From Beijerinckia sp. 28-YEA-48 (GTDB taxonomy: Bacteria; Pseudomonadota; Alphaproteobacteria; Rhizobiales; Beijerinckiaceae), in NCBI RefSeq assembly GCF_900104955.1, contig NZ_FNSI01000001.1, positions 2,576,001 to 2,640,000 of the forward strand: DNA of 64,000 nt. Reading direction: 5' to 3'. Shown piece after piece: positions 23,314 through 25,495 of the stretch. Under the pieces are notes generated by a model, which saw nothing but the letters and a program-made list of their open reading frames with translations, did no database searches and had not been told where the DNA came from. The translations under genes and the position numbers were made by a program. Position 1 is the first letter of the stretch; every line of letters starts with the position of its first letter.

Positions 23314-24048
23314 TCAGCGCCTCGAACCGCCCGATGATGGCCTGACCCCGATGATCATGGAAACGAGATAGCCATCGCTGTCTTCCTTCACGTTGGCGAG
23401 AGACGCGGAGCCAGCGGAACGCGCGATAAAATCACGTGCGTTGAGCGTATCGCGCGCCAGCTTCCGGCCCGCGTAAGGCGGCTTGTTCTTGTAAATGACG
23501 TCGCTCACCGCATCGGGAAAGAAAATCTGCCCGGTCAGAACGCTGGTGGGATTGATAAAAGCTTTGAAGTGAATGTGGGTCGTGCGCCCCGGATACCAGC
23601 CGGGATAGATGGATTTGAAGTCGACAACGCCACGCTCATCGGCCATCTGCGTCCCACGCAGATAGGTTGCGCCCTTGGTATTGATGGGATGCGCGCGATC
23701 ATCGCCCTGCCCCGGGTAGTTCGAATAGAGGCCCAGGGCATCGCAATGCCAGATGTCCATTCGGGCCCCCGGCAAAGGTTTGCAGGCCTGGTCGACCATC
23801 TGCAGACGCACGGTGACCGGCACACCCGGCCGCCCTTCCGTGATGTCGGATCGCACCAGTTTGGGGTCGAAATAATACGGCCCTTCCGTTGATGCCGGCG
23901 TCATGACGCAGACATCGGCATGAGGCAGGAGCTGCGTGGCCCCTGCGGCTGCTTGGGCGAAAGCATCTCGCGGCATCATCATACCGCCAGCAGCGGTCAC
24001 GACGAGCCGCTGGAGGATCTGCCTGCGGCTGGCATCTGTGCGAAACAT
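23314..24048 (-). CDS. Intradiol ring-cleavage dioxygenase-like protein with export signal
   Basis: A 244-residue protein of the protocatechuate 3,4-dioxygenase fold. The block GARMDIWHCDALGLYSNYPGQ is followed by the iron-ligand region YPGWYPGRTTHIHFKAF, in which the Tyr and two His ligands are visible. STEGPYYF lies near the N terminus. The N terminus SRRQILQRLVVTAAGG is a twin-arginine-like signal, so the protein may be exported folded with iron. That is unusual for catechol dioxygenases but known for this subfamily. ATG at 24048 has GGAGG upstream. Substrate unknown. Confidence 0.82.
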   Translation of the reverse strand: MFRTDASRRQILQRLVVTAAGGMMMPRDAFAQAAAGATQLLPHADVCVMTPASTEGPYYFDPKLVRSDITEGRPGVPVTVRLQMVDQACKPLPGARMDIWHCDALGLYSNYPGQGDDRAHPINTKGATYLRGTQMADERGVVDFKSIYPGWYPGRTTHIHFKAFINPTSVLTGQIFFPDAVSDVIYKNKPPYAGRKLARDTLNARDFIARSAGSASLANVKEDSDGYLVSMIIGVRPSSGGSRR

Positions 24049-24374
24049 TGCGCCTCCAAGACAACAGGAAGACCAACAGGAAGATATCGGTGGAAGAGTG
24101 CGCCCCTCCAGGCCCAGCCACCTTAAGGTCCCGCGCCGGGAAGTCAGCTGAAAAAACTGTAATGTCATGGCCGTACGACGACTTGCGCCCAAGGACAGCC
24201 ATGAGAGGCCTGGCCACTAGTCCTCATCAAAATTTTTACAAATTCGCCTGGGGTTTCAGCATGATTGCAGGAAAGACCGGCAATCTGACGCATATTCGCG
24301 CAGCGCTTGCATTCAGTTTTTAAAGATTTCGAGTACACTGAGTGAGTCGTTAACAACCGAAAGGAGGTGATCCA

Positions 24375-24452
24375 GTGTCTCATTGTCAGTTATCGCAGTC
24401 GCCGGTTTCTGAGGCCTGGACTCTCGCTTATGCGGAGTTCTGCACCGCGTGA
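24375..24452 (+). CDS. Candidate 25-residue small protein or leader peptide with extreme Shine-Dalgarno
   Basis: A GTG codon at 24375 opens a 25-codon frame (MSHCQLSQSPVSEAWTLAYA then EFCTA, stop at 24450-24452). The ribosome site AGGAGG lies exactly seven bases upstream. It belongs to a 17-base stretch (24359-24375) that complements the conserved 16S rRNA 3' end without mismatch. A GCACCGC-GTGA-GCGGTGC hairpin spans the stop codon, and a terminator follows at 24516. A weak promoter (TTCAGT, 16 bp, TACACT at 24334) lies upstream. It may be a translated peptide, a leader, or a small RNA that titrates ribosomes. The conclusion that it is expressed is inference. Confidence 0.5.
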   Translation: MSHCQLSQSPVSEAWTLAYAEFCTA

Positions 24453-24459
24453 GCGGTGC
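24442..24459 (+). promoter_or_regulatory. GNRA-tetraloop hairpin over a stop codon
   Basis: A perfect 7 bp stem GCACCGC/GCGGTGC is closed by a GTGA loop, a GNRA sequence. The small ORF's TGA stop lies in the loop. Stability and loop type argue for a functional RNA structure. Confidence 0.5.
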
Positions 24460-24515
24460 TCGTGTCATGTCAGCTTAATGTGACGTGGGTCCAACCGGCC
24501 GCGGTCGCGACAATG

Positions 24516-24547
24516 GAAGGGCCATCGAAAGATGGCCCTTCTTGTTT
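24516..24547 (+). terminator. Strong rho-independent terminator of the small-ORF transcript
   Basis: A perfect 11 bp stem GAAGGGCCATC/GATGGCCCTTC with a GAAA tetraloop, followed by TTGTTT. Best read on the plus strand, ending the transcript that carries the 25-codon ORF. Confidence 0.8.
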
Positions 24548-24595: not shown

Positions 24596-25495
24596 TCAGG
24601 CAACCGAAGCTTCGGCGACATAAGGTTGCGCCAGTAGGGCTTTGTCACCGGCCACGGTGGTGCGGTGCAGGACGCGCCGTTCGTTCTGCATGTCATATTC
24701 CATCGCCCGGTGCATGGTGCAGCGATTATCCCACATCACCAGGTCGCCCAGCCGCCATTGATGGCGATAGGTGAATTGCGGTTGCGTCGTGAAAGCCGTC
24801 AGCTCAGCAATCAGCGCCTTGCCCTTCGCCTCATCCATGCCTTCCACATAGGCGATGTGCGAGCCCAGCAGCAAAGCCTTTCGGCCATTCTCGAGCCTTC
24901 GCACAAGCGGCTGGCGCACGGGCGGCGTGGCCTTACGAACCGCTTCCGGCCGCGATGGCAGATTGTTGCGCCGACGTGTCTCCTCGAAATCATGGACGAC
25001 GACAATATTGTCGATCTCGGCTTGCTTCGCCGCGGGCAAAGCGTCGTAAGCCTTGCCGGTGTGGGCGAACATGGTGTCGCCGCCGGCTTTGGGGATCTCG
25101 CGCGAGAACAACAGCGACGCCTTGCTCAGCACAGGACGGAAGGATGAATCCGTGTGCCAATCGCTGGTGCCAAGCCAGAAGGATTTATGGCCCGCATCGT
25201 CGATCGGCTTGATGCGATCGGTGTGCTTTTCGACATTGGAGACGCGCAACACCGTCTTGAAGCCATGGGCCTGATCCTTCGGATCGGGAAAATCCTCCAG
25301 CGGGCCAAACCATGCGCTGAAGGCAACCTGCTGCTCGTCGGAGAACGTCTGGCCGCGCAGAATGACGACGCCATGTTCCTCGAAGGCGTGGCTCCAGAGG
25401 CCGAATGTGTTTTCGTTCAAGGGTTGCGACAGATCGAGATCGACAATCTCAGCGCCAAAGCCCGTGGAAAACGGGCGCACCTGTGCTTGTGACAT
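24596..25495 (-). CDS. TauD/TfdA family 2-oxoglutarate-dependent dioxygenase
   Basis: A 299-residue protein with the family iron site: H-x-D in LGTSDWHTDSSF and the distal His in DNRCTMHRAMEYD. The 2-oxoglutarate-binding Arg lies in RRVLHRTTVAGD. The N terminus GAEIVDLDLSQPL and HGVVILRGQ also fit TauD/TfdA. These cytosolic enzymes hydroxylate sulfonates, aryloxyalkanoates or related compounds using Fe(II), oxygen and 2-oxoglutarate. The substrate is not evident. No sulfonate transporter is adjacent, although an orphan SsuA-like binding protein lies at 4828. Confidence 0.9.
   Translation of the reverse strand: MSQAQVRPFSTGFGAEIVDLDLSQPLNENTFGLWSHAFEEHGVVILRGQTFSDEQQVAFSAWFGPLEDFPDPKDQAHGFKTVLRVSNVEKHTDRIKPIDDAGHKSFWLGTSDWHTDSSFRPVLSKASLLFSREIPKAGGDTMFAHTGKAYDALPAAKQAEIDNIVVVHDFEETRRRNNLPSRPEAVRKATPPVRQPLVRRLENGRKALLLGSHIAYVEGMDEAKGKALIAELTAFTTQPQFTYRHQWRLGDLVMWDNRCTMHRAMEYDMQNERRVLHRTTVAGDKALLAQPYVAEASVA

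Follow-up and report, generated by a model that had tools for sequence, protein, structure and literature searches.

The question raised by this locus is why a reading frame of only 25 codons should be preceded by a complement of the conserved 3' tail of 16S rRNA. The window, by which is meant the whole 64-kb stretch (64,000 nucleotides) of Beijerinckia sp. 28-YEA-48 DNA that was analysed, has a single Rfam match at the gathering cut-off. This is RF01867, the CC2171 family, and the model is covered over its entire length (1-159 of 159; Table 1). The locus is not an artefact; it belongs to a known, little-studied RNA family of unusual design. Our main reading, to which we give a probability of about 0.5, is that a freestanding small RNA of the CC2171 family, about 200 nt long and translated, is encoded here, in which ribosome loading and not the peptide has been selected.

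The initial annotation of the DNA had listed a 17-base complement of the 16S tail, a GTG start codon, a hairpin holding the stop codon and a terminator. All four are present where it placed them, but the stop hairpin did not hold up as a conserved element. Its remark that no rRNA lies nearby agrees with Rfam, which detects no rRNA in the window. It had named a lack of conservation in related genomes as the result that would speak against it, and the ribosome site, the start codon and the short open reading frame (ORF) are kept well beyond the Beijerinckia genome. The RF01867 identity and the two long-range helices around the ORF, here designated P1 and P2, were absent from it.

Table 1. Features of the RNA gene in window coordinates; the hairpin z-scores are flattered because the pieces were picked for folding.
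Feature	Position	Strand	Basis
Candidate -10 box TACACT	24334..24339	+	28 nt upstream of AGGAGG; weak
Short leader; consensus of relatives TCGTCAACAAnC	24346..24358	+	32-relative alignment, 189-locus base counts
RF01867 (CC2171) match	24351..24539	+	79.9 bits against a cut-off of 75, E 9.5e-15
Complement of the 16S rRNA 3' tail, 16 nt	24359..24374	+	match to own 16S, base counts, RNAduplex
25-codon ORF, GTG start, TGA stop (VSHCQLSQSPVSEAWTLAYAEFCTA)	24375..24452 (including TGA)	+	start set and stop position conserved; GC periodicity
P1 5' strand CATTGTC (codons 3-5)	24381..24387	+	pairs with 24509-24515 in the fold; covaries across classes
P2 5' strand ATCGC	24392..24396	+	pairs with 24501-24505 in the fold; two of the pairs are G-T/A-T ends
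Stop hairpin GCACCGC-GTGA-GCGGTGC, TGA in the GTGA loop	24442..24459	+	7 bp, z -4.0 as cut-out
P2 3' strand GCGGT	24501..24505	+	fold; helix tested over 59 loci
P1 3' strand GACAATG, immediately ahead of the terminator	24509..24515	+	fold, consensus, covariation
Intrinsic terminator GAAGGGCCATC-GAAA-GATGGCCCTTC, 11-bp stem 24516-24541, T-rich tail	24516..24547	+	z -6.9

CC2171 reportedly comes first from the work of Landt in 2008. The Rfam entry as displayed gives RF01867 as 'caulobacter sRNA CC2171', type sRNA, and nothing more, and in the accessible part of the Rfam 15 paper the family is one table entry. In Mesorhizobium huakuii the RF01867 transcript is MH_s33, a 215-nt RNA obtained with RNA-seq; according to the accessible text of that paper it falls outside the nine RNAs tested by Northern blot, which were drawn from the unannotated ones (PMC5596092). 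No description of the design or function of RF01867 was found in the open-licence literature searched, where the family appears only in lists.

The RNA gene is flanked by two ORFs on the minus strand: the one at 23314-24192 weakly matches intradiol dioxygenases and the one at 24596-25495 is taurine-dioxygenase-like, both below the NCBIfam cut-offs. The next downstream ORF of at least 90 codons is co-directed with the RNA gene in 84 loci and reads the other way in 94, and no widely common downstream gene was found, the largest downstream family comprising 7 loci. A role as leader or attenuator of a downstream gene is ruled out by these figures. Attenuator leaders of the trpL/rnTrpL type, in which an intrinsic terminator comes after a short ORF, are alike in this respect, but the locus described here has no widely common or regularly co-directed downstream gene. 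On the other side, one and the same upstream gene precedes the RNA gene in 28 loci (L031, L033, L037 and 25 more); the 12 named loci among the 28 are sphingomonads, a case of local synteny.

If TACACT is the -10 box, a transcript start would be expected near 24345-24347. In 92 of the 189 loci the best -10-like box sits 27 to 31 nt ahead of AGGAGG. The box scores over these 189 loci are hardly above those of shuffled sequence, and the box of the window ties with three others.

The ribosome site

The sequence GAAAGGAGGTGATCCAG at 24359-24375 is the exact complement of the 3' end of the genome's own 16S rRNA (near G000:C1:5409275-5409292). The perfect 17-base complement described in the initial annotation is thus correct as a match to 16S, but its final base (24375) is already the first letter of the GTG codon and only 16 nt lie before the start. 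That the ribosome site is an extended one was borne out, since the 16-nt complement ends at the start codon and is conserved beyond the Beijerinckia genome. With up to three mismatches allowed, the 16-base core gave one match in the 64-kb window, which is the locus itself with no mismatch, against a chance expectation of 0.39. The 12-mer AAGGAGGTGATC is found four times in the whole genome: at the locus, in the 16S complement and at two other places, neither of which has the matching flank or a suitably spaced RTG. A chance origin of the site is ruled out by these window and genome counts together with the reversed controls of the search patterns AAGGAGGTGATCNNNTGTC and AGGAGGTGATCNNRTGTC, which gave none among the matches listed. 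The leader, including the G of the start codon, is predicted by RNAduplex to pair with the 16S tail at -35.2 kcal/mol, compared with -9.5, -13.5 and -12.6 kcal/mol for three made-up leaders with ordinary Shine-Dalgarno (SD) sites.

Base counts were obtained from 189 distinct loci that match AGGAGGTGATCNNNTGTC, with duplicates removed. Most loci were gathered by patterns that include the SD core and TGTC, and these letters cannot be counted as conserved because the search patterns fix them. At the free positions G is found at -3 in 183 loci and A or G at -2 in all 189, while +11 is C or T in 182 and +12 is A or G in 171. The variation at the edges is restricted mostly to bases able to pair with 16S, G-U pairs included; the misfits are G at +11 in 7 loci and C or T at +12 in 18. 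The complement stops at -4, the base before GAAAGG, because pairing with the next 16S base is possible there in only 28 of the 189 loci. An rRNA fragment or an antisense relic of 16S is ruled out, as there is no complement beyond the tail.

The 30 best loci by the RF01867 model, which is itself biased toward sequences with such a site, all bear it. The pattern fits 23 of them, six have GGTGGTC instead and one has GTGAAA for GTGTCT. The GGTGGTC variant would pair by G-U if the 16S tail is the usual one. The pattern of the 16S tail itself was seen in one of ten genomes, that of Beijerinckia alone; the others may lack or mask the tail. An extended SD has been described in S. aureus, where, according to the accessible text, the SD-anti-SD pairing near the start codon is longer than usual by two extra pairs (PMC13009471). 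That site is carried by ordinary mRNA, whereas here up to 16 nt are found on a small freestanding RNA.

One explanation of so long a site, raised already in the initial annotation, is that the RNA acts as a sink, which would hold 30S subunits by tight binding of the 16S tail and so lower the translation of SD-led mRNAs. The predicted duplex and the pairing-compatible variation at the edges are consistent with it. In E. coli a six-base SD outperforms longer ones in efficiency (accessible text of PMC2176067), which fits a long site that retains ribosomes instead of only supplying them, and an SD is reported for only 24.6% of the genes in Caulobacter (accessible text of PMC4117421). A pure sink would, however, have no use for the conserved start and stop codons. 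The SD core, moreover, is predicted to be only partly unpaired (with a mean of 0.41 for 176 loci, of which 57 exceed 0.5, and a value of 0.64 for the window), and a sink is on balance unlikely. Another proposal is a sponge of the Sis type, in which GGAGG would bind sRNAs with anti-SD-like motifs. The accessible text on Caulobacter SisA-D, which share an anti-SD-signature motif and pair with CrfA, offers a precedent (PMC12559287). The proposal is hardly credible for this locus, where the complement continues through GTGATCC in agreement with 16S and the start codon would be left unexplained.

The reading frame and its peptide

The start codon at the end of the complement is part of the conserved pattern. 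Among the 81 matches in which the first base of NTG is unconstrained, a hand count gave A in 43, G in 32, T in 6 and C in none; the start codons ATG, GTG and TTG are thus conserved, with CTG absent (0 of 81). A pattern of the GGTGGTC form with five free bases matched in 10 of 240 genomes. Six of the ten have an NTG in place, with A, G or T as the free base, and all six are RF01867 matches as well; the remaining four are chance-like. As a whole this noisy pattern was not above its reversed control, which gave 12 matches in the same 240 genomes.

The end of the frame is also kept. The first in-frame stop is found at 16-28 codons in 172 of the 184 loci with enough sequence, and in 28 and 46 loci for the other two frames. 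It lies ahead of the terminator in all 185 loci, compared with 137 and 129 for the other frames. In the group of peptides beginning with MSHG all three stop codons are in use at codon 19 (TAA 20, TGA 20 and TAG 2). Conservation of the stop may merely serve to prevent run-off at the 3' end and is on its own no proof that the ORF functions. Of 94 non-redundant ORFs, 83 have a GC content at third positions above the average for the first and second positions and 9 have one below it; past the stop the figures are 41 above and 47 below. These 94 remained of 161 loci (out of 185) that were long enough, once near-copies had been removed; the unfiltered figures are 146 against 10. An enrichment that ends at the stop argues for translation of the frame. 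The 25-codon ORF with a GTG start that had been annotated is present (Table 1), with its start set and stop position both conserved.

The amino acid sequence gives a different picture. Codon position 2 differs more than position 3 in the groups of 18, 25, 23 and 26 codons, and the two are about equal in the group of 24 codons. The synonymous fraction is lower than expected in the 18-codon group (0.216 against 0.313) and slightly higher in the 25-codon (0.298 against 0.269) and 23-codon (0.315 against 0.261) groups; one of three changes in the 24-codon group is synonymous. Over these length groups the codon-position and synonymous tests gave no clear sign of purifying selection on the peptide. 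The suggestion in the initial annotation that a particular tiny peptide matters is not supported, as differences are more frequent at position 2 than at position 3 in four of the five groups and synonymous changes are without clear excess. A weak constraint may still act, for example in the MSHC group, because of the slight synonymous excess in two of the four groups, those of 25 and 23 codons. The N-termini MSHC, MSHG and MSSE recur among the peptides, and a TWIVAS-like stretch recurs in many of the MSHC group. The peptide of the window has no Pfam match over the cut-off, the best E being 0.12.

These observations bear on the possibility that the locus is a strongly translated mRNA for a functional, fast-evolving micropeptide of 18-27 residues. 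Such a peptide would account for the conserved start, stop and length, for the codon periodicity, for the recurring N-termini with the slight synonymous excess in two groups and for the longer, protein-like ORF of four Azospirillum-type loci. It agrees poorly with the variation at position 2, with the synonymous deficit of the 18-codon group and with the Pfam result, and the helices P1 and P2 would be superfluous for an mRNA. The conservation of codons 3-5 is explained by the RNA, because they form a strand of P1. The micropeptide is rather doubtful as the object of selection.

The dual-function sRNAs SgrS and RNAIII are alike in that a small structured RNA carries a short translated ORF. The peptides of SgrS and RNAIII are conserved, whereas the amino acids of the RF01867-type ORF are without clear conservation. 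In a family filed as sRNA, the signs of translation are conserved and the product is not clearly so. Speaking against translation, Schrader 2014 (PMC4117421) reports that the majority of Caulobacter ncRNAs are not translated; two earlier ones, not named in the accessible text, are.

A longer ORF is found under the site in four loci, designated Azospirillum-type: L076 and L109 are from Azospirillum, and L125 and L216 resemble them in sequence. It comprises 56-59 codons, with a signal-peptide-like start that is similar in all four. A P1-like strand and a terminator are still found after the long ORF. The product may matter in these four loci because of the longer ORF with its similar signal-peptide-like start, and the ORF is possibly a protein gene born within the RNA gene.

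RNA structure and ribosome loading

The whole RNA of 197 nt folds at a z-score of -6.4. The RNAalifold consensus of 32 relatives contains P1, the terminator and a three-pair hairpin within the ribosome site. The 11-bp terminator with a GAAA loop, already recognised in the initial annotation, is well founded: among the 32 relatives both partners have changed at 9 of its 11 pairs, and a terminator-like hairpin was found by script in all 185 judgeable loci. The hairpin with the stop codon in its GTGA loop is strong in the Beijerinckia sequence (Table 1) but missing from the consensus structure of the 32 relatives.

P1 is almost invariant inside the group of 32 relatives, and covarying pairs are found across the wider set (CATTGTC/GACAATG, CATGGTC/GACCATG, CATCGC/GCGATG and ATGAGATT/AATCTCAT). 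When the stretch ahead of the terminator was taken as the 3' strand, 41 of the 46 classes of 5' strand scored better with their own partner than with a swapped one; five did not. The mean scores were 13.6 and 9.7, and the p value of 5e-10 ignores kinship, the loci being related by descent. For P2 the own pairing beats the swapped one in 53 of 59 loci. A cruder test that accepts any helix gave a small gap to shuffled sequence (mean 6.97 against 6.36; a score of at least 7 in 95 against 40 of 185).

From the patterns in the sequences we infer that selection has acted on loading a ribosome and running it along the RNA rather than on the peptide. The ribosome would then be the ligand, and the duplex with the 16S tail would capture the 30S subunit. 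Since P1 starts at base seven of the ORF, where a ribosome covers the RNA during initiation, initiation would have to open P1 and P1 would have to resist initiation. Each round of translation would in this way convert the RNA from a closed into an open form and back, and the ribosome, stopped early, would be released ahead of the 3' structure. The open or ribosome-bound form might act by its stability, by pairing of the freed strands or by holding 30S.

A simpler possibility is an ordinary trans-acting sRNA, the ORF of which merely recruits ribosomes that protect the RNA from nucleases. The freestanding gene with its structure and terminator and the Rfam type sRNA would suit it; a complement to the whole 16S tail, in place of a 6-nt SD, would be left unexplained, and this explanation is distinctly unlikely.

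A more far-reaching proposal is suggested by 6S RNA, a mimic of the promoters that RNA polymerase binds, which is set free when the enzyme makes a short product without meaning. The likeness, as an analogy only, is that of a structured RNA mimicking the target site of a central machine, here a ribosome site. A ribosome counterpart of 6S RNA would be a widespread perfect-site mimic that takes 30S by its whole 3' tail, frees it by way of a short, meaningless ORF that opens the RNA's own helix, and so shifts translation between SD-led and SD-less mRNAs; in this full form the proposal is quite unlikely. As context for the class, Caulobacter, the best-studied member of the Alphaproteobacteria, is reported in the accessible text of PMC4117421 to have no SD at the majority of its genes (75.4%). 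Should ribosome loading prove to be what the RNA is for, this would be a new means by which RNAs sense or adjust the translation machinery.

Distribution among genomes

RF01867 was found in 85 of 385 Alphaproteobacteria genomes at E of 0.001 or less and in 14 of the 385 over the cut-off. Six of the 85 genomes have two or three matches. The exact pattern AAGGAGGTGATCNNNTGTC gave 81 matches in 80 of the 385 genomes, one in each save for a single genome (G012) with two. The two copies in that genome (C1:805114 and C1:2922049) have sites ending in CGAATG and CCGATG and come perhaps one from each of two subgroups. In the order to which Beijerinckia belongs, AGGAGGTGATCNNRTGTC was found in 73 of 150 genomes.

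The scan of genomes gave at least 120 loci. The 80 of these with listed titles comprise sphingomonads, caulobacters, Hyphomicrobiales, Rhodospirillales and Acetobacteraceae, in addition to broadly titled Alphaproteobacteria or Proteobacteria. Twenty chosen loci, mostly from other subgroups, gave no RF01867 match at gathering. Many of the relatives found lie outside RF01867.

A draw from across the phylum gave matches in 51 of 299 genomes, six of the 51 being outside the Alphaproteobacteria. Four of these six loci are the start of one long ORF and the other two are 18-codon ORFs followed by a terminator-like hairpin. The long ORF (L261, L262, L263 and L264), which we take to be an oxoacid-ferredoxin oxidoreductase subunit, begins with AAGGAGGTGATCTGATGTC; because of this, SD sites of 12 bases can be said to occur on ordinary genes too. 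Candidate members from the Gammaproteobacteria, a class assignment by our own judgement, were found in 2 of 148 genomes of one order, and a looser pattern was found in 2 of 79 genomes of one family whose class was likewise judged to be Gammaproteobacteria. In L265 and L266, which lie outside the class and come from the order with 2 matching genomes in 148, AAGGAGGTGATCATATGTC at around position 301 is followed by an 18-codon ORF with AMSEGR and, past GGAAAGCCGC, by a terminator-like hairpin.
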